From Ischnura elegans (Eukaryota > Arthropoda > Insecta > Odonata > Coenagrionidae), in contig NC_060254.1 of NCBI RefSeq assembly GCF_921293095.1, positions 63,038,069 through 63,102,068 of the forward strand: a stretch of 64,000 nt of DNA, read 5' to 3'. Made by a program: the position numbers and the translations under genes. The notes under the pieces are model-generated. The model was given only the letters and a program-made list of their open reading frames with translations, was not told the origin of the DNA and made no database searches. Position 1 is the first letter of the stretch. Each line of letters starts with the position of its first letter. Positions 7,985-61,258 of this stretch are shown piece after piece.

Positions 7985-9805
7985 ATAACATGTTGTAATA
8001 ATTTTATTTAATATAGTTTACAAAGTAGTTTCTTTCCATAATTGACAATTTGTGCCTTCACAGATAAAGTAATATTGTAAATGTTCCTTGTAAATGACTG
8101 TGCTTTTCTTACGAGGAATTAAGGAATTGGTGAATATGTAGTACAAGTTAATGACACATGAAAGTTGTGCTCACTTAGTAATTACAGAAAGTTAATTCCC
8201 GCAATATTAAGATTATTATTATAAGAGAATTTTTCAGCTCTCACATGGCAAAATATTTTAAAACAATTACTAAAAACAATTTACTACAGTAAAATTCAAT
8301 ATTTTTGTCACAAATCTGTGGATAAACTTTGCCAATAGGTTATTATTCAATTTTATTTATATGGTGCATTCGAAATATTATTTTTGAGATTCTATTGTGC
8401 ATACATGAAACTATTATGTCAAGACACAATGTGCCTTCATGCAATTCATGCGGTAGCAATGGTTGGGATAATAAAATTTCCTTGACATTAGCTCCACAGA
8501 AATATTAATTAAAAGGTACTTTCTCATTAAATGCAACACATTTTTAATCAAGTAACTTTACATAAATCTAGCCACAAGTCAATATTTTAAATAATTCAAG
8601 AAGAACAATCACAATTATCACTAAAATTTTATATTACAAAATAAATTTGAATCACATTATATTAATTATTCTCTTCCTCTGACAGCTAAAATTTCCAACT
8701 TGCAACGGTGGTATCAGTACAATATTAAGTTCCAATAATTCAAAATCCAAATAAATAACTATGATTTATAAAATAAAATACTGGAGATGGACTCTTTGGA
8801 TATGAATTTGGATGTATTTTTCGTAGCGATAAAAAGTGGATATTCATAATATCATTAAAAGTGGCAGTATACTGCTGCTTTTGTAATTACTTCCTCATTA
8901 CAATTGTCCCAAGATTTTGTGATTCCATTAATAATTATGTTCTTCCATATTTTCAAATGACTAGTTCAAAGAACTTATAGACAGTTGTTTAAGACTATCA
9001 TCATATTATTGCCATGTTTTCCCACGCTTGAGTAAAATAAACATTATTACATATGTATTAAAAATAGATGAGATGAAATTGAAACACACATTTCGGATAA
9101 CCCAAATATTTAAACCTGGCGACTAGAGATTAGGCTATTAAAAAAATGAAGCCTAAAGAAATAAGGCACAGTCTTTTGCATCAAAAAGGACCAGGATATT
9201 AATCCTCACCTCAAATGTACAGGTACTTATTTGGATGCCATTGGTATGTATAAAAGCATGACAAGTTCAACTCTGAGAAATGTGAGCACTTAAAAATATG
9301 ATAGTTATCACAGTCAATGAGGCCCACCTTTGGCAAATGATTTCTGCCACAATGTGTCAGGCAAATGAAGAGTCAACCTCTTTTGTGTACAATAGGCTAT
9401 TAAGTCCTGAGGAAAAGCTCAAGGAAAGACTATTTTCCACCATATAAAAGGCCTCACGTAAGTATGATATGCTTCCAATTATTCAACTTCACACTGATAA
9501 TATCAACCACTATTTATATACACATTCTCCTCTTATCAACACAAATATTAAAACTTAGAGGAATTCAAAGATCACTGAATTGATCCATTTCAACAATTTC
9601 TGTATTAAAAAATAAAACTCTTTGGTAGCTCAATTAATAAAATCAACATTATACCATCTCTATGATTTACGCTGGCATCAACCAACTTTCATCAATTTTT
9701 AACAGTGATATATGAATAAATAAATCACTATTGAGCACAAGACAGAACAAAACATGACAAGTATTAAAAAGATAAAATTTAAAGTAGCACACCTTCGGAT
9801 AGGTA
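7985..9805 (-). other. Probable 3' UTR of the MARCH-type gene
   Basis: This 1.8-kb AT-rich stretch directly follows the stop codon of the minus-strand RING-CH gene. It is free of the repeat types that fill the rest of the window. A minus-strand AATAAA lies at about 8003-8008, near an A/T-rich candidate cleavage region. The true 3' end cannot be fixed without transcripts; other AATAAA-like hexamers occur inside. Confidence 0.4.
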
Positions 9806-10052
9806 TCACATGAACACACTAACTTCATAAGTTTGCGCTTCTTGCCGAGGAGTAAACAAACGAGTAGTTTCCTGAGCTGGCGGACCATCATTATTGTTGG
9901 TATCTGCTGGATTCATAGTAATTGAAGGAGTATCTTGCAAAGTAAGAGCCACTAGGGAAACAGGAATAGGACGTGATGATGGTCTATCTTCCAAATTCAA
10001 GTGCACCACTTGATTGACCATCTTCCAACGCAGAAACATGCTCCAATGATAC
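9806..10052 (-). CDS. MARCH-type gene, coding exon 4 (C-terminal)
   Basis: Acceptor TTTTGTATTTAG/GTATC completes the arginine of FRYHW. It encodes the juxtamembrane FRYHWSMFLRWKMVNQVV segment, conserved in MARCH2/3 as FRYHC..Y.EWR.TNQ.V, then a low-complexity tail. It ends ...EVSVFM with TGA; the V-F-M end fits a class II PDZ-ligand pattern, which is inference only. Confidence 0.9.
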
Positions 10053-13000: not shown

Positions 13001-16000
13001 TATTTAAGATTCAATGTGCTATTCGTACTACTCTTTCCAAACTTGAAGTTGACACGTAAATGAATATTAATATATTACGCAATGATGAAGTCGTTTACTC
13101 AAAAGAGAAGCAGCCACATATATAATCTGAAGATATTTTATGACAGCAAAAAACGGATACCCTCAAATTCTGTAATTTTTCTATGCAATAATAGTGGTAG
13201 AACTAAACGGTGTAGAAGCTGCCTTCTGCTACTGCCTTGTGACGTCACGGCCAATATTCAACATGGACACCCGTTTTCGCGGCCTTTGAATTTTTCCATA
13301 TTTCAGACGGTCATCTCGAATCAACTATTCACTATTAGGATTTAAACTGTGGTTTTACGACATCATGTTATTCTGAACTCTAATTTAAAAAATGTGTTTG
13401 GTGCATTTGAAACACTAGTGCACTTCCCTATTATCAATTTTATCTCGTAATTGTCGCATGTAAAATAGGGTTTTCATTAATGTTCATAATATCTCTATCT
13501 TAGTTTTTAATTTACTGTGCAATAACTATAATTAAATGGAGAAGCAAAATGGAAAACATTACTGCTAAGCTCAATCATATTATTTAAACTAAAATTGATG
13601 CCAAGAAGTCTCTTTGACTAAGAGAAATAGAAGTATAGAGAAATTTGGCCGCAGTACGTACTAGGAATATGCTTTGGGGGGGGATGAGGGGGCTGAAGGG
13701 GTGACCGCCAGGCATCTTTATGGAAAATTCTTGAAATACGACATGCCTGGAAATACATTCTTGTCTCACTGCCATGCTATTAATAAATGATCTTTAACTT
13801 TAAGCAGATGAAGTAATTAAATGACAAAACTAGACAAAAGTTTTGAATATTTCTTTTATTTCTCTGAGGCTTTGGGAGAGGATCTATCCCCCTCATCCCC
13901 ACCTGTAGTTATGCCACTGTTTGGCAGTATTCATAATACATATTTCATGTAATTGAGTCCTCATAAGCTCTCATTTTTTAACCACTTGTCCGCATTCTTA
14001 GAGAGGCAGACATGGTAAGGCAACCCTGTATTTATTATTATTATTAATTTAAGACTAACCAGGAATAGAATACTGGTTTTAGGGCTTATAAACTGATGAA
14101 AAGAGTCAAGTTTATGAATTGTCCTACTCCTAGTGACGTTCTGGAATCTTGCCTATAATTGATGTTAATGAAATTGGTCAATAGCTCCCTGGATCATGTC
14201 TGTTTCCCATTTTGAATATCGGGGTAATGTTACATAATGCCTATTAAATATAAATTTTTTATTTTAATAGGCTTAAATTTATTTAAGTAAATTTCACATA
14301 CAGCCGTAACGCCAATTTGCAGTGAAATTTTTAACAACAAAATAATTGATACCATGGTTAAAAAATTAGATCCTTGTAAGTGCGCCCAATGACTTGGCAC
14401 CTTTCCTCCCACTCCACATTCCACCTGCCGCATTCCTTGCTTGCCCATGCCGCTGTATCAGCTCTTCCCCCCACCCTTCTACCTAGCCGCCAAGGAGTTG
14501 CGAACGCATATGCAGCAGTAAAACGCAACATTGTCTCCTGGTCGCCTATGCATGAGGTGACTGGGAGGCAACGAATAGGGAATGGCCAGCGAGGAGTCAC
14601 GTGGTGACACCGAGCGGCTGTGAAGCGCAATCAGGAACGTGTGGTGGAGTCTGGTGCAGAGAATGTACTTGAATGGCCAATAAAGCGAGAGTGGTGAACC
14701 TTGTGTTGGCGTCTTAAATGGTTCCCTGGTGACCCCTCGACGGACCCTGCTGATCTAGAGACTTACATCCTTGAATATTGTACGTCATCCAGCTACGAAA
14801 TTAAATATTCTTAAGTAAGACGTTTCTACACGTAAGAGGAGTCCATATAGGGAGGTTTTGCTTCATTTCAGATCTGTATCAGAGACTTATCCTCAAACAG
14901 TAATTACCGGAATGTTATGCTGCACCATCCAACAAATCCAAGTAGAAGAAAGCAGCAAAGGACAGCCAATCCAGCTCCTTCCCAAACCCCATGACGTAGA
15001 TACACAGCAGCGGCCATTGCACATAAGTAAACTGACACCAAACACAAGGGCATCAGTAAGGTTAGGCACATCATATCGCCTAGTAGGCCACCAGATCCAG
15101 GGGCTCCATTTCCACCTCCGTTTCGGACCCACTGAAAATCAAAAATGAATTTGTCAATGTGGAATCAATTCAGTACAGTTCAATCAATCAATCAGTTTAT
15201 TTGTCAATGAATGATGTAAAATCACAATAGACATCGTCAAAAGATACATACAAACATTAGAAGACAATTAGAAACAACCTTGATACAAAAAACTATGTAC
15301 ATGTCAGGTACTACAAATACAGTGGAACTTGGTTAGTACGTTCCTCCTTAGTACGTTTTCCTCCTTAGTACGTCGATTTCTCTCGGTCCCGGTACCATCG
15401 GAACAAAATACAGGTAAAAGTATTTGGTTAGTACGTTTGAAAAAATTGCGCTTTCCTGGTTAGTACGCTCAATTGCTAGCCGTGACGCAACCCGCAATTC
15501 GTTCTCCAGTATCTTCTTAAGGGTCGTAAAGCTCCGAATTCATGATTTAATTTATTATTACTAGCCATTAAAATTCTTGCATTCATTCCACATATCTTTC
15601 TTCGACCGTAATTTATCCAAATGCATTTCTCAATTGTTATGACGCGATGAATAATAAAATATGGCCATTTATCAGGAATGTCTGACTATGCAAAACTGCA
15701 ACCAATGAGAAGCCTCAATTTTCCCCACCCCGAGCTCCTCACCTCCTATTGCCTCTGCAGTGCCCACTGCGCACAAATTTCACGAGTGGGTTGCTATTGC
15801 ACGATTTATCATGATGAAGAAATGACTTATCCAATTCCCACTTTATCTAAAGCAGTACTGCACGACGTCAATGCTACGTAGTACGTGCGTATTTGACTAC
15901 TGCTGCGGGAGCAGACGATGCTCTGGATCTCCACGCGAAGCTTAGCTTAAAAATACTCGATCTCGGCACGAAAGCAGACGACATTAAACAAATCTTAAAA

Positions 16001-19000
16001 GTGAATTTCGACTGTATAATATAAAATATTCTTGTAAATACCTCGTAATCTAAAAATCTTGCGTGTTATTATTCGATATATCGATCGCTATAACAATCGA
16101 TATGGCTTTATTCCAGAAGCGCGAATGTGTACGGCTGTTGCCGTAATTTAAGGTTAATATAATTTTGTCCAATTTTTATGATGTTTAAAAACAACCCGTT
16201 GACATACTCAGGGTTGTTTTTATATTCTCCGAGTATGCTGTGACAAAAAAGAAATGACTTAGCTATACTTGTCCTCTTTCTATAAATACATATAGGATAA
16301 ATCACGGGAGATAGACGCCGTTTTCATGTAATTGTCTTCGGGAAATCTATGAAACATTGTGATTTTTTATTCACATGGTATTGTTTTTCAATGTAGCGCC
16401 CATTTTCTTTATTTTAAAGGTGAAAAGAGTTCAGGAAGGCGATCCTACGAGATTTACCGATAGTAATTGTAATTGTGACGACTTTTCCACAGATTGCAAT
16501 TACCCCGACTGCTATTTTTTACTTTCCTCGTTAGCACGTTTTCCTGGTTAGTACGTTCATTTTTTGTGGTCCCTTCAGAAACGTACTAAACAGGTTCCAC
16601 TGAATATTGCAACAATAATAATAATTGACCCTTTAGTCCCTTTAATCCAAGACCTCTTCATCACAGAGACCTTCTAGATCCCCTGACATGTATTCATCAA
16701 TTGAGTACAGGGGATTCCTGCACAACCGTTTCTGAGCCATTTTTTTAAACTTATTTTTTTCTTTTAATTTCATTGCCATTGGCAGTACATTATATGCCCT
16801 AATAGCCATGCTTATAAAATTATTTTTTGTCTTAGTCAGTCTCTGGAATGGTATGTTCAGGTCATCTTTGTGCCTGGTGTGGTATGGCAGTTCAATAGTT
16901 AATTAAGGCAAGTTATCACCCAAGTATTAACATTAAAGTAGGGAAGCAGAAACTGGTAGAAGTGGATGAATTCTGTTATATGAGAAGCAGGATAACTATC
17001 GACAGGAGAAGCAAGAAACCAAATACCAACAGAATAGCCCCAGCAAAGACAGCATTCCACCAAAAGAGAGACCTGCTTACAGGGGAAACTTAAACATGGA
17101 AGTAAAGAAACAATTTAAAAGAACCTAGATTTGGAGTTCGCTTCTAGACAGAAGTGAGACACGGACAATGAGAGCAGCAGAGAAAGCAAGGATAGAGACC
17201 TTCAAAATGTGGTGCAACAGAAGAATGAAGAGGATCAAATCGATCGACAGTTAGTAATGAGGAAATCATGAGAAGGGGAGCCTCATGAAAACCTCAATAA
17301 GACAACAGAACAAGTTTATAGGCCACATTTTGAGAAATGATGGCCTGATGTTGACAATCCTTGAGTACTTTCCTTTTGTTACTTTCTTTATCCTTTAGTT
17401 CTCAAAACAGGGAATTACCCACAGGGAGAGGATGGCTCGGTGGAAGAGTGGATGTTTAAGAGTGGAATGATGAAGAAGATAATGCGAATATCAGCACGGA
17501 GATAAGTGAGAATAGGAGAAAGGGATAGGGAGCAATATTTGAGTAAATATGAAAAAGAAGGTATTAATAGGAAATAAAAATAACTAAACATTAGGAGTAT
17601 GCTTCTATAGGTAAGTGAGGCATGGACAGCAACAGAGGAAGCAAGGATAGAAATGTGGTCCAAAAGAAGAACGATTAGTATCTAATGGATTGATCGAGTT
17701 AGTAGCGAGGAAGTATATACTAAAAATAGAAGGAGAGAAGAGAAGCCTCATGGAAACCTTAATTTGAAGATGTAACAACCGTATAGGCCACATTTTGAGA
17801 CGTGATGGCCTGATGAAGACAAAAATTGAGGGATAAGTGGATGGCAAGAATGGAAAAGGAAGACCTCGAACAAAATACATGGAACAGGTAGAAGAATGTA
17901 AACAGGTAAAGAAGAATGTGAAAGAGAATAAATAAGTAGGTGTAAAAATATTGGCTGATAGGAGACTTGAGTAGAGAGCTGCATCTAACCACTCTTAGGA
18001 TTAGGACCAGTGATGAAGATGATTATCAATAAAGTAACAAAGTGTAAATTAAATAAAGGTACTTAAAACAAGGAATAAAACATTTACATAAAAAATCACT
18101 GCTTCAGTTTCATCCATGAAAAAGTATCAGATGTGACCGCAAAGCATCTTACATTCTGGGACCACAGACCTTGTATAAAATCCAAGCGAATGAATGGCTT
18201 ATTCATAGTACATGGGCCTCGAACATGGGGAGTACATTGGGTAGAGCATGGTGGAAGCCGTGCTGCAGGAGGGTTTCCTTCATATTTATGTGTAGATTCA
18301 CCCTCACAGACAGTCTTATGATTGCATTAGCAAAATTATGATGTGGGTGGGTCGGATTATGCTGGGGTGGGTTGGGTCGGGGCATAGTGTTCGTAATTAG
18401 AACACTAACTTGTGCTTCGAAATTTTATTAAAATCCCTGTTGGTTACCTGAATTGAATCAAAATAAACAGACAAGCCTGTAACTTTGTTCACCTAAACAA
18501 CAATTTGTTTTCATTCATCTTTTCTCCTCTGTGATGGCAGCTACAACATTAAAGTTAACCATTCGACATCAAGATAAGTATCCATCAATTTTTATTTGTA
18601 GTAGTAGAGCTTTTTCCCACCCCTAGGATTATTTAGAAAGTGAAATATGTTACACGTACAAAGTTTGGTGAAGATCCGACAAAAATTGGTGATTCTATAA
18701 AACTATACTTTCGACAAACCCGGTATTGGCATTAGCCTGCCCTTAACGAAAGAGAGCCACAGTTAAATGTCGAACATGGGGAAGTAGGCTGGGTAGAGCA
18801 TGGTGGAAGCTGTGCCACAGGAGGGTTTTGACTGAGAAAATGCTGTGCTTGAAATGCCCTCAACAAAGAACTTAAGCAGGGATCTTGTAGAAAAATCTCA
18901 GCCACCACAGGGATTTGAAAAGGGACTAATTGTAAGTGGGAGGCTAACTCTCTAGTAACCACATTGAGCTGATAGTCTAGACATCAGGATGTTAATCTCA

Positions 19001-21621
19001 AAACAAAATAATTATGTAATCTACTCACTTCACTTTTTCTCTCACTAACACATTTTTATTATCCCATTCAAGTAAGCAATGAATATTGATTGATTTACAC
19101 CATCTTTGGTAAACCCAATTATTTGTTACACGAGCCAACTGATGGGATAGCCTACTGCTAAATGATTTCTATCCTTATTCCTAAATTCCAGATCAACACT
19201 CACAGAATATGGGATGGGGATCCAAAGAAAGATCCACCAATTTATAATTCTATACCTCCATTGAAATAGGATACTAGGAGCCAGGTGAAAGATAAGGTCT
19301 CAGCTCACATGCACGAGTCTGTATTACAAAAATTGCTACCTATTTTCTTAAACAGATGTAATAGATCAAGGTGTGATTCAGAAAGGAAATTCAATTTCTA
19401 AAATCATTGGTTAACTCTAGAACATTTTTGTCAACATTAGCAAAATAAAAAAGAGGAATTTAAGGGATAATTGTACCCAGAAAAACCAATATTGATTAAC
19501 CTTCATGAGTTTTAGTAGCTCGGTCATCATACAGGAAATATTGTTTCCGTAAACTTGGTTATTACTATTCCAAAACTTAACAATGATGACAATAAAAAAA
19601 TTGAATACCTGAACAATACATTTGCATTCACTTGTGATTTCAAGACATTTATACAAGGGTAGCGGAAAAAGTTATTTCTGTCACATTGGTTGGCATTATG
19701 CTTATTACATGATAAGAACTCCAAATGGTGATTTCCACACTTTAATTAAAGATTCAATTAACGACCATGGTTTTGACATATTATGTACGTCATTTTTAAG
19801 CTGATGTTTTGTCATGCTTGGCATTTATTTGAATGATTGTAAATGTAGAAAGTAACAGAATAAGTGCAGGAAAAAGGGTAAAGTGCAGGAATTGGTATAA
19901 CCGTGTGATTTAGAAAATTATGGGTCGGACAATCACTCTTTTGGTCCCCGAAAACCTTTCATTGCAGCTATCATTCCGAGGGACGGAAAAATAATAATGT
20001 GAATCTGGGTTAATAAACCACTTTCCTGGCTCTAATTCAAAACATTATTTGTTACTGCATTAAGGGCTCTTGAGCTAATTTTAAAAGGTTGATATCAAGA
20101 AATTGATAAAAATTTTAAAAATAAGTCGCACCCTAATGTTTTACCACGTTAATGAATTCATGGGTGAAAACCAAGTTACTGCTTCATCAGTGACCTTGGC
20201 ATAACTCTGCTATTACAATAGGTCATTTGACATGTAAGTAGTTGGATCACCAATAACCCAGCATTGAGAATCTGATGTCTATATTAGGGATAAATCACTA
20301 CATGAGTAAGGACAGGTTAACAGGATGCATACACATGGTATGATGTACAACAGCTCATTAGGAAATTATACTGACCCAATTTAAAATAAAAGTAATAACT
20401 ACAATGGAGTAACTAATTGAATGGGAGCAGAAATATGATTTTGCTGACTTACCTCACAGAATGGCTTCGATTTACGTTGAGTATTAAATCTGAACTTGCA
20501 AATTTCACAATGGTCCAGGTTTGAGGCAGAGAGCCAGTGCTCAAGGCAGCTTCTATGAACCAGCCCTAGAGTACCAATGCAGTCGCATGGAGAAATCAAA
20601 GGCTCACCAGACATTCTACCAGTATTCCGATACTGACTGCTATCATTTCCTCCATTTTCACCTGAAAGACAGTTTTCATCTACTAGTTCATAGAAATCTT
20701 GAGCTTGCCTCAGATTTGATGCCCCAGAGATCATAATAGCATGAAACCTGTTAACACTGTGACAAATTTATCTACAGTTGAAAAGAATCAACGCGGATTA
20801 TTCACGGATTGCATTGAGAAAGTTTCACTGCAGCAAGATGGAAATATGTATGGACTCCATATGAAAATTCTCCTTACTCTATAGTAATCGATAGCTCCTG
20901 AGCAACAAACAGAATAATAAGCTCCAACAAGTATATTGGGCAAGGGAGAGACCATATTTCCTGTTCTGAAACTGGGAACTTGCTTATCAAGAATATCTTC
21001 AACAGAATTAGTGACCAAATAAAGATATCTCCAATGGCAGAGATATCTTATTCTGAGTATTTTCAACAAAAAAACTATAGGAAAGTGTGATGATAGTATA
21101 TGCACTTTACACTACATTTATGTTTAAGGGTTACAGTGCAAATTGGCTGTTACTCGGGATCTTAAACTACGAGAAAGCAATGCTCGAAATTATAAATTCA
21201 ATTGTATTATAAGAATGTGGTCGACAACAAAGAGGTGAACGTCATGTTATGTTTCAACCATGATATTTGCTGAAAAGAGCTACCCCAGAAGGGGAGCTAC
21301 AATAAACCGCCTAAATAACAGCTCTTTGATGATGACTGCCATTAGCATCATCAAAATGCAAACATACCATACCGTAACCTCGAATAAGATTATTTTTTTA
21401 TGAATTAAGCATGAAAATGATTAACGGTACACATGATTCTGTAGCAAAAAATGAGGATTGCGATTAGTAGTCATACCTTCATGGCATATTCGGCAAATAG
21501 AACCGCTACTTGAATGCCTGCGGTCACTTCTGTGGGATGTGGGTGATTTTGGCGACGAAACCACTTCTTTAACTGTCAACATCATTTCTTGAGACAGGTT
21601 TGATTGCACGACTTTTTCCAT
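9806..21621 (-). CDS. MARCH2/3-type RING-CH E3 ubiquitin ligase (4 coding exons)
   Basis: Joining 21621-21477, 20661-20453, 15131-14908 and 10052-9806 gives 825 nt, or 274 codons plus stop, with all three junctions in phase and GT-AG. MARCH proteins are membrane-anchored E3 ligases of the endosomal and plasma-membrane system that ubiquitinate membrane cargo. A complete C4HC3 RING-CH is present: C43, C46, C74, C76, H84, C87, C100, C103, including CRICHEG and SPCDCIGTLGLVHRSC. Two hydrophobic segments follow (about 134-163 and 171-192), then TFRYHW as in MARCH2/3, and a Ser/Pro-rich cytosolic tail ending SVFM. Length matches the 246-253 aa vertebrate relatives plus insertions. Oddities: about 20 extra residues between the second and third zinc ligands, and a glycine-rich linker (WVRNGGGNGAPGSGG) where vertebrates have a charged one. 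Assignment to MARCH2/3 rather than MARCH1/8 rests on CLEHWLS and the linker/TM order. It is head-to-head with the gene at 22401. Confidence 0.93.
10053..10902 (-). other. MARCH-type gene intron 3, repeat-poor end
   Basis: Intronic DNA between exon 4 and the transposon at 10903. A moderately GC-rich patch at about 10290-10560 has no ORF or boundary that I can interpret. Confidence 0.5.
11674..11897. repeat. Diverged foldback inside the long-TIR element
   Basis: Nested inverted matches: GGTCGCGC-GGCGTA against TACGCCAGCGCGC, CTTTGAAAAC against GTTTTCAAAG, and GTACATTGTA against TACGTACAATGT. Spacing is irregular, so this may be an old MITE or a subterminal structure of the host element. Confidence 0.4.
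12405..12482 (-). mobile_element. tRNA-derived SINE fragment
   Basis: On the minus strand an A-box-like TAGCGGTAGAGTGCA (12451-12465) is followed by a B-box-like GCGGTTTAAGCC (about 12408-12420), then CTTCATGGC. The layout is the same as the SINE-like element near position 140, but the sequence is diverged. Confidence 0.45.
13652..13919. mobile_element. hAT-type MITE (family 2)
   Basis: A 268-bp element starting CAGTACGTACTAGGAATATG with a G run just inside, and ending CCTGTAGTTATGCCACTG after a C-rich tract. Flanking 8-bp repeats are TTTGGCCG (13644-13651) and TTTGGCAG (13920-13927), 7 of 8 matching. It lies in intron 3 of the MARCH-type gene. An ORF covering the left part is incidental. 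Confidence 0.7.
13928..14907 (-). other. MARCH-type gene intron 3, remaining part
   Basis: Intronic DNA next to the exon 3 donor. It contains a short TTA/ATT microsatellite (about 14032-14047). A GC-richer patch at about 14370-14720 shows opposing spurious ORFs. Confidence 0.45.
14908..15131 (-). CDS. MARCH-type gene, coding exon 3 (membrane exon)
   Basis: Acceptor TTTTGATTTTCAG/TGG, donor ATTCCG/GTAATT. The frame starts WVRNGGG, continues LLGDMMCLTLLMPLCLVSVY as the first membrane helix, has a short loop (LRHGVWEGAG) and a second helix ending WCSITF, and leaves a split arginine codon. This matches the two-helix hairpin of MARCH2/3. No ATG-started ORF in this frame reveals it, so it is easy to miss. 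Confidence 0.9.
15160..15319 (-). mobile_element. LINE 3' UTR and tail (split copy, distal part)
   Basis: On the minus strand this reads as the end of a non-LTR element: AT-rich 3' UTR, a polyadenylation hexamer AATAAA at 15196-15201, then a TTGATTGATTGA-type tail (about 15176-15195). It continues the coding remnant at 16642-16884; the two parts are separated by the pogo-like insertion. The tail ends only about 30-45 bp before the exon 3 acceptor of the MARCH-type gene, in the same orientation as that gene. Confidence 0.7.
15320..16602. mobile_element. Pogo/Tigger-like non-autonomous DNA element
   Basis: A 1283-bp element with ends CAGTGGAACTTGGTTAGTACG (left) and, read inward from the right, CAGTGGAACCTGTTTAGTACG. 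The GGTTAGTACGTT motif repeats several times near both ends. TA precedes the left end; the right flank is AA, so one copy of a TA duplication has probably mutated. The terminal CAGT and TA context suggest the pogo group of Tc1/mariner. No transposase ORF remains. It interrupts a minus-strand LINE. Confidence 0.75.
16642..16884 (-). pseudogene. LINE reverse-transcriptase C-terminus (split copy, coding part)
   Basis: Eighty uninterrupted codons read YHTRHKDDLNIPFQRLTKTK, then NNFISMAIRAYNVLP, later KKMAQKRLCRNPLYS, ending DEEVLD and stop. This is the characteristic end of Jockey/CR1-like ORF2 proteins (Y-TR----L--P--RL-KT---F---G---YN-LP). The copy is truncated upstream near 16885-16895. No frameshift is seen in this part, so it is younger than the plus-strand LINE tails next to it. 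Confidence 0.75.
16905..17345 (+). pseudogene. Decayed LINE reverse-transcriptase C-terminus, copy 1
   Basis: Broken frames read INIKVGKQKLVEVDEFCYM, RSRITIDRRSKK, AKTAFHQKRDLLT, IETFKMWCNRRMKRIKSID, then IGHILRN-like residues and GLM. This is the order seen at the end of many insect LINE ORF2 proteins (RYLGS.IT.DG..., AK.AF..KK, W.GSETWT, MWC.RRM..I.W.D, GHILRHDGL). Several stops and frameshifts are present. Antisense to the surrounding MARCH-type gene. Confidence 0.7.
17590..18015 (+). pseudogene. Decayed LINE reverse-transcriptase C-terminus, copy 2
   Basis: A second copy of the same domain end, overlapping copy 1 in content: RIGHILRRDGLMKTKIEG, GKNGKGRPRTKYMEQV, ADRRLE.RAASNHS, with stops and frameshifts. 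Shared blocks such as ATAGGCCACATTTTGAGA occur in both copies. The two tails lie head to tail about 250 bp apart, from two insertions or a local duplication. Confidence 0.7.
18205..18275 (+). repeat. Repeat pair, copy 1 (partner 18768-18835)
   Basis: The blocks TCGAACATGGGG, GGGTAGAGCATGGTGGAAGC and CAGGAGGGTTT occur in the same order and orientation here and at 18768-18835. No coding sense in either copy; intron 2 of the MARCH-type gene. Confidence 0.55.
18768..18835 (+). repeat. Repeat pair, copy 2 (partner 18205-18275)
   Basis: Second copy of the block described at 18205; a few substitutions and a short indel separate the two. Confidence 0.55.
18836..20452 (-). other. MARCH-type gene intron 2, remainder
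   Basis: AT-rich intronic sequence. I see no further exon or bounded repeat; ORFs here have no recognisable motif. Confidence 0.5.
20453..20661 (-). CDS. MARCH-type gene, coding exon 2
   Basis: Acceptor CTGTCTTTCAG/GTGAA completes the split glycine; donor TGTGAG/GTAAGT is near consensus. It encodes the rest of the RING-CH (ligands C74 to C103) and ends in phase 0 after ...KPFCE. Reading past the donor gives VSQQ..., which is intron. Confidence 0.92.
20662..21476 (-). other. MARCH-type gene intron 1
   Basis: An 815-bp intron between the two halves of the RING-CH finger. No repeat boundary seen. Confidence 0.7.
21477..21621 (-). CDS. MARCH-type gene, coding exon 1
   Basis: Start ATG at 21621-21619. 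The exon encodes a Ser/Arg-rich N-terminus and the first two zinc ligands (SICRICHE). It ends with G of a split glycine codon at the donor GAAG/GTATGA, splitting the RING-CH finger between ligands 2 and 3. Just upstream of the ATG a pyrimidine-rich tract ending TTCATAG/CTGCA suggests a separate 5' UTR exon. A GTAAGC lies only about 45 bp further up, so an unspliced leader is also possible. Confidence 0.9.
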
Positions 21622-31633: not shown

Positions 31634-34168
31634 TAAAAGATAGTGCCCTTTGCGATTTGACTGCTTGAGTTCAGTCTAATAATTATTTGAGTCTTTTATT
31701 TTTCGGAAGAAAAACGAATTCCTTTCTTTTTATCATCATAATCAATAATCCTAAGATTGGTTTGACGCAGCTATCCATTCCTATCTTATTCGCTAGCCTT
31801 TTCATACAGACGTATGTCTTCTCTTTTACATCCTTCATAATTTTCGTAGTTTGTCCCGCTCAGTTTATTCTGTCAAACCTAGATCTAACATAAGGTTTAT
31901 CCTTACGTCTGAATCTTTTTTAATGGACTCGGTTATTACTAAGTAGTCCTCTCTATCATTCAGCTAATTGGAAAATCTCTGACATCCATGCTCTTGGTGG
32001 TGAAAACGCTGGTGGTTTAATTTTGTGGCCGTTTCTTTGGATTGGAGTTTCAAGTTCTCGCTTTTTAATTCTCAATTCCGGTGTTACCAAGATATTATAT
32101 GCTCTGTGATGCATCTCCGTTGTTCATTTTTTTAACCATACCACTTTTTCATGCGATGGTTTCAGCGGTAAAAGGTACTTATTTTTTTATGTTTTATGCT
32201 TTCCATTAGTGTTGCGTCATTACTCAATGTTTAATTGCTGTATCGAGTTCATTGGAAGGGGAGTTCCTTCTCTTCCTCTCAACCCGTGGCACCTGACCTT
32301 TCCCAGTGGGCCTTGAATGACGCTGGCGGTCAAGTTTCAGTTATGGTTTACGTTGTGAGAGCATCATATCATTGAAATTATACGATTTATCCTTGGTTAG
32401 ATTGTTTTAGAGGTGGATAAAAGTGCGTCAAGCCTGAATCGTGCGATAGTTTTTTTTTTCGTCCCTCAGAATGATAGCTCCAGCGATAAGTTTTCTAGGG
32501 CCAAAAATCATCACCATCATTTTCTGAAGCACACGGTCATTCTCGCCATCCCTTTTTCCATCGTTTATTCCGTCCTTTTCCATATTTACAAGTGTCGTTC
32601 AATTAAAAGCCAAGCGTGGCATTACAATCGCTGTTAGCGTCTGTGCGTTCTGATTGGCTGAGGGACGGTGCCAGCGACGGACTAAGGGACGTGCCGAGTA
32701 ATAGAAAAAAGGATGAGATATCCATCCCTCGAGTCATAGCGAAATATGATCGTGTGTAACGGTCATTTTTTTCTGCCATAATTGGAGCGATTGCTGGAGC
32801 TGTCCCTCGAGAGGGACGGAAAAAATAATCAAGTGATTCAGGCTTTAGTTTCGATAACGTTCCAATATCCCATGAGCGAAGATAAGGGGTTCAATTTTCT
32901 CTCGTCGGTGCATTGTGCTTCGGTAATGGATTTTGAATATTTGTTGGTCCCAAATTTTCCTGGTTTTCATCAGTAAAAATTTCTTTGTTCTTATTATATC
33001 AGTATGTTGTTAGCCTTACTAAATGAACGTCTGTCGCAAAATCAACCCTTTTGGAAATAGTCTGAAAATGTTTCCGGAGGATCCGGAAATAAACTGTGTA
33101 ATACGTAGTCATCGAATTCAATTTTGTGAAGTAGGTATTCAATAATATTCAATATAGCAAAATATGGAATACTTTATAATATTTTTGCTGCGGCATTATA
33201 TCGTAATAAGGTATGACGCGCAGGAATGTTTGTTTTTTTTTACATGCAGTTTTTCTTATGTAACACGGTCAAAAATGTCTTTTCCCTCTGTTACATGATT
33301 GCATTCGTTCTCTTTACTGAATTGCTAGGACGAAGAAAGTCGAGATTCGCTTTTAGTTGTGAAATAAGTTCTCTAGCGCGACCAGTATTGTTTCATCATT
33401 TGCTAATCATTTGAAATCGGGGATTCTTTTGTAATCCTCACCTTATCTTTCCGGTTTTCTGCGCTTCTCTCCATCATACTATTGTGCATTAGTGTACGAT
33501 TCCTGCGCTTGGAGCGCTGCTTATGCCGCCGCTTATTTCCCCCCCCTGCCAAGCACCCTAGAGGTGGCTCGCAGGGTATTACGTAGATATAGATGTATTT
33601 TGCTTCCTTACGAAGCTCCTGGAATTGAATTGTTTTCTGTGTTATCTTTAATTTTTCGTAAAAAAATTCGATTAATTTCCTTCTTTTCTTCAATCTAGTT
33701 CAATAGTTAGGAGTATGCCTTGCAAATCTGGGGCGAAAAAAATCACCAATGTTTTTTTATTTCGTATTTCATCTGCTTTTATACTTTCACCGCATGAAGC
33801 CCATTCAGCCTGCTGAGGAGCGTAAATCAATCTCCTGTCGTCGTCTATCATACCAAATTAATGCCATGTACGTGCCATTTTATTCATCCCTTCGCATGCA
33901 AAAGCTTTCTCCTTATTCGCGGGAATATTTGGGGTCGGGTTGTTCTACTCTTTAAGTCCCATCTGCTTGAGGAGCGAAAGGGCTCATGTCCTCTTCACCA
34001 TAAATCCAAGTTTTACGTGAGTAAAATATCCCTCTGCTCCTTAGCATTCTTCGCATATAAATTATCGCTGTAGTTTTTGGCCAGCAAGCGTAATTTCGTC
34101 TAATTTTTACGGAAGTTTACTATTTTCTAAATCGAGCTCGAAGTTCAAAATCACGGTCAGGGTCATCG
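31634..34168 (+). other. No gene recognised; T-rich plus strand
   Basis: Long intron-like sequence. A CCAAT-box-like CTGATTGGCTG lies near 32650 within a GC-richer patch. ORFs here show no motif or credible splice frame. Confidence 0.4.
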
Positions 34169-59389: not shown

Positions 59390-59662
59390 ATAGCTGTTAT
59401 TCCGACGCCCCCACACTCAGCACGACACCGTGGCACCTCGACGCCTTCAACCGGGATTGTTATCGCCCACGACTCTATTAATCGCTCGCCTCGTCGACTT
59501 TTTTCTTACTCCTCGGGTGTCAACCGCCCTGTCCCTTGTCCCGTTTTCGCTCCTTGCATTCATAGGCAGCGATGGCTACTTTTTTCTTGTCCTTTTCTTC
59601 TTGATCGATTTTTTTCCACTGAGCTGCTCCCTAAGAGTCAATGTGAGGTTTCCAATCCCATA

Positions 59663-60397
59663 TTGAAGGAGTTATTGGATCGTGTCAAGGTAATCCAAGA
59701 AAACCAAAGTGAGTTTGTGAATTCTATAAAAAACGACATAAGTGAACTAAAGAAAGTTATATCAACCTGGGAAAGCTTAATCAACGAACATAGCAAAACT
59801 ATTTCTCTAATTAGCGAGTCACTATCAAATATAAGTGGTAAATTCGACGGTATGGTGGCTGAAAATGAAATTTTGTTGAAGCGAGTCGCTAACCTTGAAG
59901 CTCAGTTGAACACATGGGAGCAGGACTCTCTACGGAATGTCGTAGAAATTCACGGGATCCCATTTAAGTCTGATGAGGTATTGGAGACCCTTGTCTGTCA
60001 AGTTGGGCTGGGCCTTGGGGTCAAGTTAGATGCCAGTGATGTCGATTATGCATATAGACTGAAGGCCCGTTCAAACTTACCTAACAACAGACCCCCTTCC
60101 ATCCGGGTTCGGTTCATGAGATCGAATTTAGCACGAGAAATACTGGAAGCTCGAAAAGCAAAAAGGAGTTTCTCAACAAGAGATGTTGGATTCAGTGATT
60201 CCCCTAACTACCCCATCTATGTCAATGAATCACTCAGTGCTTTGAATCGTAAAGTGTATGCTAAGGCGAGAGAGCTTAAAAAGAACGGTAAACTTAAATA
60301 CTTATGGATAAGAGGGGGGAAAATATTTGCAAGGGAATGTGATGGGAGTGAGCGAATTCTTTTACGCACCGAAGGCGATCTCCATGCCCTTCAATGA
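59663..60397 (+). CDS. LINE ORF1 protein (coiled coil plus FP-C-like domain)
   Basis: About 244 residues, still open. An N-terminal heptad-rich coiled coil (ISELKKVISTW through NEILLKRVANLEAQL, about residues 20-82) is followed by RNVVEIHGIP, ALD-type acidic residues, VDYAYRLKAR, RPPSIRVRF, IYVNESLSALNRKVYAKARE, KYLWIRGGKIFAR. These are hallmarks of the FP C-terminal-like domain common in arthropod LINE ORF1 proteins, which bind RNA and act as chaperones. No ATG exists near the start; the frame is open upstream to 59390 without a methionine, so the original start is lost or further divergence has hidden it. The stop overlaps the next ATG (60394-60397). Confidence 0.75.
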   Translation: MKELLDRVKVIQENQSEFVNSIKNDISELKKVISTWESLINEHSKTISLISESLSNISGKFDGMVAENEILLKRVANLEAQLNTWEQDSLRNVVEIHGIPFKSDEVLETLVCQVGLGLGVKLDASDVDYAYRLKARSNLPNNRPPSIRVRFMRSNLAREILEARKAKRSFSTRDVGFSDSPNYPIYVNESLSALNRKVYAKARELKKNGKLKYLWIRGGKIFARECDGSERILLRTEGDLHALQ

Positions 60398-61258
60398 CCA
60401 CTCGTAACCACTTTGTTTGTGGTGATTATCATGTGATAGCAATTTCTGAATCCTGGTTGAAACCATCTGTGCCCACTGAATATGTTAATTTGGATAATTA
60501 TATATTGTTACGAAACGACAGGTTGGAACGAAGTGGTGGAGGTGTGTGTGTATATATAAAAGAGAATCTCAATGGAAAGATACTGTCCTGTGTCAATGAA
60601 AACTTCAAGCTTGAATTTATGTTTGTTGAAATAACATGTCCTCTTGGAAAGATTTTACTCGGTGTTGTTTACAGACCTCCTAAGGTTGGTTACTTGAGTG
60701 AATGTTTTGAATGTACGCTGGCAGGCTTCCTTCCGTCATATAATAACATACTTAATTTGTGGTGACTTTAACTCGGATCTTTTAAAGATTACGCATGACA
60801 GTAACTACATAAGAGACCTATGTTTCAGGTTCAATCTGTCTTTAGTACCATCTCATCCAACTCATCATCGGCTCACATCAAGTACTCTATTAGATAAATT
60901 TATTATAGATGACCTTTCTAAAATAAAGGAACATGGCCAATATCCAGTTCCTTTCTTATCTGATCATGATTTAATATACATAAAATTTAATCTTAAGGTG
61001 CCAAAAATGAAAGAGAAGGTAATTTGCTACCGCGATTTCAGTAAATTTGTTCTCCGTAATTTTCAAGAAGAATTTGATAATATGCCATGGGCAGACTTCA
61101 TGTCCACCAATTCTGTAGATACCAAGGTATCAACCCTTATGATTAATTTAAATCAATTATTAGATATTCATGTCCCACTAAAAAGTTTTACTCCGAAACG
61201 AAACCAACTTCCATGGATAACCCCGGAAATAAAAATATTATCAATTAAAGGGACATAA
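60394..61258 (+). pseudogene. LINE ORF2 apurinic-like endonuclease, broken
   Basis: Motifs of the exonuclease-endonuclease-phosphatase fold appear in order: VIAISESWL, SGGGVCVYIKE, LGVVYRPPK, ICGDFNSD, then LDKFIIDD and LSDHDLIYIKF. The first block (the N-R-S-L region) is missing after the ATG, so about 20-30 residues are deleted. A frameshift lies between about 60735 and 60765, because the GDFN half is in another frame. A second shift near 61250 moves to RRSYTRRKSKK. After that the reverse transcriptase is gone. Non-functional. Confidence 0.75.

Follow-up and report, generated by a model that had tools for sequence, protein, structure and literature searches.

Intron 2 of a MARCH-type ubiquitin-ligase gene of Ischnura elegans contains a sense-oriented LINE, whose AATAAA hexamer lies close to exon 3, the exon coding for the predicted membrane helices. 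The data make it very probable that this is an ordinary intronic LINE, mostly spliced out with its intron, and that its polyadenylation signal is weak or unused. The locus lies in a stretch of 64,000 nucleotides, here called the window (C9:63038069-63102068), and the source genome searched for copies of its repeats comprises 1.72 Gb in 110 contigs. In the proposed sequence of events, the LINE would have entered intron 2 by target-primed reverse transcription, in sense orientation and 5'-truncated, bringing the standard 3' end of its family, i.e., AATAAA followed by (TGAT)n. A pogo/Tc1-like DNA element later inserted into the LINE, and much later, judging by divergence. Both insertions appear to have spared the acceptor, the branchpoint region, and the pyrimidine tract of the host, and therefore exon 2 should be joined to exon 3 in most transcripts, with loss of both elements. 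As an intronic polyadenylation site the LINE signal would then be plausible, though probably weak or unused, and RING-CH-only transcripts would occur in trace amounts at most.

The MARCH-type gene

Four coding exons on the minus strand, joined in an intact frame, give a predicted protein of 274 aa:

21477..21621, minus strand: exon 1 (coding part), from ATG to donor AAG/GTATGA, read from the translation
20453..20661, minus strand: exon 2, which completes the RING-CH domain and ends at donor GAG/GTAAGT
14908..15131, minus strand: exon 3, with both predicted membrane helices (the last residues of the second hydrophobic window lie in exon 4)
9806..10052, minus strand: exon 4 (coding part to stop), read from the translation

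A domain search places RINGv at residues 43-103 (E 3.1e-14), a PDB match to 2d8s was obtained (6.7e-10), and hydrophobic 19-residue windows on the Kyte-Doolittle scale start at 132-147 and 166-176, forming two segments. By the RINGv domain and the two predicted hydrophobic segments, the gene is classified as one for a MARCH-type RING-CH ligase; its subtype we take to be MARCH2/3. The last residue of exon 2 is 118, and exon 3 stops within codon 193, which bears out the exon logic of an earlier, sequence-only reading of this DNA, namely that exons 1 and 2 encode the whole RING-CH and exon 3 the helices. If the exon 2 donor were read through, the predicted product would be a 135-aa protein composed of these 118 residues and 17 encoded by the intron. 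Downstream of the stop codon of the gene, about 1.4 kb is free of AATAAA (8357-9805); the first AATAAA is at 8357, and an ATTAAA is found at 8548.

An old LINE split by a young DNA element

The LINE lies within intron 2 on the minus strand, as does the gene, so that its sense orientation, claimed previously, is confirmed. The following features were delimited:

15185..16886, minus strand: 5'-truncated LINE, span including the nested element (at least 39 other genomic matches to its 3' end; homology with the copies starts at 16886)
15185..15195, minus strand: (TGAT)n tail of the LINE
15176..15184, no strand: target-site duplication ATTGAACTG, 3' copy (ATTG within it can also be read as tail)
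16888..16896, no strand: target-site duplication ATTGAACTG, 5' copy, separated by a single base from the LINE 5' breakpoint
16645..16886, minus strand: LINE fragment, C-terminal end of the reverse-transcriptase ORF of the family
15320..16602, no strand: pogo/Tc1-like non-autonomous DNA element, minus-strand ends CAGTGGAACC..AAGTTCCACTG (terminal inverted repeats, TA target, genomic copies)

The genome was searched with the 135-bp 3' end of the LINE; 40 of 77 candidates were scored, giving 40 matches including the window itself, and thus at least 39 others, full or partial, 20 of which were fetched for comparison. The upstream LINE piece (16606-16887) is present, whole or in part, in 14 of the fetched copies and has no match in the other six. 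Where both pieces occur they lie within 7 nt of each other (14/14 copies), whereas 1.29 kb separates them in the window. The sequence-only reading had placed a LINE 3' end at 15160-15319: the element is real, and its true extent is 15185-15319 plus 16605-16886. Nine fetched copies extend further upstream than the LINE of the window, and the breakpoint CATACC (16886) is thereby fixed independently. ATTGAACTG starts one base beyond it and recurs at the tail (15184-15176), forming a 9-bp target-site duplication; a 9-mer shared anywhere between the two 51-bp breakpoint stretches arose in 20 of 2000 shuffles.

The protein-coding capacity of the family was read from the copy L009, in which one ORF, upstream in the family, matches RVT_1 (1.4e-21), and a second, downstream ORF shows 84% identity over 38 aa to the LINE fragment of the window. 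A Pfam search with the 86-aa LINE ORF of the window gave no hit, and this ORF was identified via the genomic copies instead. Dispersed copies sharing the 3' end, a reverse transcriptase in the family, and a target-site duplication establish the insertion as a LINE, presumably of a CR1/Jockey-like clade. The copies share a similar 3' block, followed by a (TGAT)n-like tail of variable length and then by unrelated flanks; L2, like the LINE of the window, has a short-repeat tail. The best match among the scored copies is 93% identical over the whole 3' end, and among the 20 fetched copies L011 is 96% identical over most of the upstream piece; hence the insertion does not look recent, nearest-copy identity being a rough clock only. 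In collections where records near the genome of the window may be left out, the LINE peptide gave 15 pattern matches in viral_contigs, 0 of them confirmed, and the 21-mer of the LINE tail gave nothing in viral_contigs or genome_contigs.

What splits the LINE is a DNA element which the earlier reading overlooked; the label "pogo" for it is our assumption. Its terminal inverted repeats have 29-nt arms that are 86% complementary, and TA flanks were found in all seven other copies read, one flank in the window now being TT. In the genome search, 40 of 1339 first-look candidates were scored and 41 matches were listed, the window itself included: at least 39 other long matches, their identity ranging from 94 to about 100%, and one short piece on C8. 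Of these long matches, 37 run end to end (from base 1 or 4 of the query to base 1288), the other two, on C8 and C19, being partial. Among the matches listed, the nearest other copy differs by 3 mismatches and one gap in an alignment of 1290 columns (99.6% identity). None of the 14 LINE copies with both LINE pieces contains the element, and the two pieces are uninterrupted there. The LINE was thus inserted first, and the DNA element entered it recently, given the 99.6% identity of its nearest other copy; this identity, together with the 1339 first-look candidates, indicates that the family has probably been active recently. The insertion could be polymorphic. A transposon-end 22-mer found nothing in viral_contigs, a weak result since the query blended both ends and matched neither window end exactly.

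Other repeats are present in the window. On the plus strand at 16905-17830, translated frames resemble decayed element remnants, which we assume to come from the reverse-transcriptase C-terminus of another LINE, and 17129-17365 and 17590-17830 form a direct repeat, about 240 bp long and 69% identical. The same intron contains an 88% direct repeat (18219-18276 and 18770-18828), and 19810-19994 has an inverted match at 70% to 32451-32621; both pairs are taken as short interspersed repeats. The 5' half of a different LINE lies at 59390-61255 on the plus strand, with an ORF matching Baculo_FP_2nd (9e-9) and, weakly and below the cutoff, an endonuclease (0.0011).

The AATAAA hexamer and its surroundings

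Three further features bear on the processing of intron 2:

15196..15201, minus strand: AATAAA hexamer of the LINE (intact in 18 of 20 fetched genomic copies)
15132..15175, minus strand: U-rich acceptor region of exon 3, with its polypyrimidine tract and branchpoint-like motifs; a downstream polyadenylation element would lie here too
16237..16254, minus strand: best acceptor-like site of intron 2, TTTCTTTTTTGTCACAG/C, inside the nested element (score 7.85, crude matrix)

The hexamer (15201-15196) had been described as about 65 bp upstream of exon 3, and this is correct, since exon 3 starts at 15131 and 64 nt lie between. The two fetched copies in which it is altered have AATTAA and GATAAA. Its conservation in the remainder shows that the hexamer is due to descent within the family, and a chance origin is ruled out. 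Intron 2 carries nine AATAAA in sense and 11 in antisense orientation, compared with 4.6 +/- 2.2 in its dinucleotide shuffles, and the minus strand of the window carries 110, the other strand 92. When the local 201 nt are shuffled, 2% of the shuffles have an AATAAA in their last 80 nt. It has been reported that AATAAA is counter-selected in introns (PMC5499120, available part); nine sense against 11 antisense hexamers in one intron give no evidence either way. The LINE hexamer is the ninth and last in the intron, 5251 nt from the donor. The eight earlier ones, four of them inside the nested element, are found at 623 to 4896 nt. As these come before it and the donor is GAG/GTAAGT, a special likelihood that the LINE signal ends the transcript is not supported. 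For Drosophila melanogaster, the part of PMC5499120 available gives a median reach of U1 protection of about 500 nt; the LINE signal lies beyond this reach, and the distance therefore argues for its exposure.

The upstream context of the LINE hexamer is exceptional, with four UGUA in 100 nt (a count attained by no other of the 201 AATAAA in the window) and 50% T (attained by 2 of the 201, itself included), these UGUA and T features having been chosen after the sequence had been seen. As for the downstream sequence, 32 of the 201 have at least as much T and 45 at least as much G+T. About 108 nt upstream of the hexamer in the 20 copies contain one to four UGUA and 46-56% T, so that the upstream context is mostly a property of the family; one of the four UGUA in the window (in CATGTACAT) is a change absent at that place in the 20 aligned copies. 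The downstream side is host sequence. Its densest 15-nt T stretch has 11 T, reached by none of the 20 copies, whereas overall T is reached by three, G+T by five, and the longest T run (5) by four of them. This densest stretch is the pyrimidine tract of exon 3, and cleavage and splicing factors would therefore use the same RNA.

Splice signals of intron 2

The donor of exon 2, GAG/GTAAGT, is near-perfect; on the minus strand of the 64 kb, NAGGTAAGT occurs here and at one other place. At the other end of the intron, it had been proposed that the LINE tail stops 30-45 bp before the acceptor and leaves little room for the branchpoint. Neither statement survives: the tail ends at 15185, the 9-bp target duplication comes next, and 53 nt of host intron, including this one duplication copy, remain before exon 3, with branchpoint-like yTnAy motifs at -34 and -23, both in host sequence. 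The exon 3 acceptor accordingly does not look impaired. With a crude matrix of approximate frequencies, it scores 4.9 and ranks third among 256 AGs scanned, and the acceptors of exons 2 and 4 score 2.1 and 1.9.

Alternative fates of the transcript

Normal splicing of intron 2 should prevail on this sequence evidence, and the strong donor, the well-ranked acceptor, the eight prior AATAAA, and the intact frame of exons 3 and 4 suggest the same, while the exceptional upstream context, the T-dense downstream region, and the 5251 nt from the donor point the other way. One way in which the signal might be used is read-through of the exon 2 donor with cleavage just after the LINE AATAAA, which would create a composite terminal exon with an intronic part of about 5.3 kb and a soluble 135-aa RING-CH protein. 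The sense orientation, the family hexamer, and the UGUA- and U-rich upstream context are consistent with it, its coding consequence was verified (118 + 17 aa), and CD274-L2A and IL18R1-Short are precedents, as far as the available text of their sources goes. It is nevertheless highly improbable: the donor is near-perfect, eight AATAAA come earlier, beginning 623 nt into the intron, and with the exon 3 acceptor 64 nt after the hexamer, cleavage would have almost no head start over splicing. In CD274, moreover, the donor is weak and the transcript runs on past exon 4 into L2A (PMC6877088, available part). A second route to truncation, the splicing of exon 2 to a skipped terminal exon starting at 16237 and ending at the LINE signal or at an AATAAA of the DNA element (16112, 15556), is to be given just as little credence. 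The 16237 site has the best acceptor-like score of the intron (7.85 vs 4.9 for exon 3 with the crude matrix), its letters are the same in five of eight loci examined, the window included, and the frame after exon 2 would add HTRRI and then a stop; however, an equally good best site occurs in 26 of 200 shuffled introns, the matrix frequencies are approximate, the two nearer AATAAA would compete with the LINE signal, and a donor-like GAG/GTGAGG at 15745 could make an internal exon instead. A special case of this arrangement, slightly more doubtful still, is a joint terminal exon in which the young DNA element would give a strong acceptor and the old LINE a processing site with the exon 3 tract downstream, so that a single U-rich stretch would have to serve both cleavage and the splicing of exon 3, in competition. 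The chance of such a two-transposon exon is rated similar to or below the very small one of the read-through isoform as a regular product.

A different question is why the family has kept the hexamer. It may have been retained as part of a 3' end recognised by the reverse transcriptase of the LINE, with no role in the RNA processing of the host, a possibility to which we give perhaps one chance in a few. The copies end in (TGAT)n-like tails, and no A run directly follows the tail in any of the 20 3' ends compared, so that the template copied does not seem to end in poly(A); furthermore, the last 60 or so nt are conserved as a block, rather than the hexamer alone. On the other hand, the UGUA and U-rich upstream sequence resembles a true 3' processing site, and cleavage after the repeat could still take place. 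Recognition by the reverse transcriptase is compatible with the favoured explanation, an ordinary LINE mostly spliced out, and the confidences given to the various readings overlap rather than add up to one.

Comparison with known systems

The closest parallel is CD274-L2A, where, according to the available part of PMC6877088, an intronic LINE-2A yields a terminal exon and soluble PD-L1. Both RNA and removal of the LINE demonstrated the isoform. In the human gene, which is truncated, the donor is weak, GUAAUA, and the mouse gene, with a consensus-like donor and a mutated signal, is reported to have lost the isoform. As in the present case, the polyadenylation signal of an intronic LINE lies upstream of a membrane exon, and its use replaces the membrane part by a short new tail, of 18 aa in CD274 and a predicted 17 aa here. 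The cases differ in that exon 4 of CD274 continues straight into the LINE past a weak donor, whereas here the upstream donor is not weak (GAG/GTAAGT vs GUAAUA) and the signal is 5.25 kb away, and in that the CD274 isoform was seen in RNA, while the one considered here is predicted from sequence. In IL18R1-Short (PMC13232192, preprint, available part), an L2-derived intronic polyadenylation signal was followed by RNA sequencing across nine mammals, with robust expression in some species and tissues. Like the signal in the odonate gene, it belongs to an ancient LINE in an intron, and it truncates a membrane protein, although the part lost there is an intracellular signalling domain, instead of the membrane helices that would be lost here. 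In addition, the text reports that all L2 subfamilies carry the signal motif at the 3' end and that less than 1% of TE-derived signals are expressed in PolyASite data.

Among MARCH proteins, the available part of PMC4897099 describes RING-less MARCH9 and MARCH10b as natural variants. As in the proposed isoform, the RING-CH is separated from the remaining protein; however, it is the RING-CH that is lost in these variants, whereas the proposed isoform would keep it and lose the helices. A literature search by title and abstract start showed, among the 10 papers listed of 1,298, no MARCH gene truncated by intronic polyadenylation in this way, a result that concerns those fields and makes no claim of absence from print.

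Implications

The locus is an example of a sense LINE whose processing site looks good and which lies 53 nt from an acceptor while the splice signals remain undamaged, and it offers an ordered pair of insertions, an old LINE and a very young DNA element. Given its youth, the DNA insertion may be present in some individuals and absent from others, and if the two-transposon exon were real, the RING-CH-only isoform would constitute a natural presence/absence experiment. If the LINE signal is used, this would be a counterpart of CD274-L2A in which a LINE makes a soluble RING-CH fragment out of a membrane ubiquitin ligase, and such a fragment might act as a decoy.
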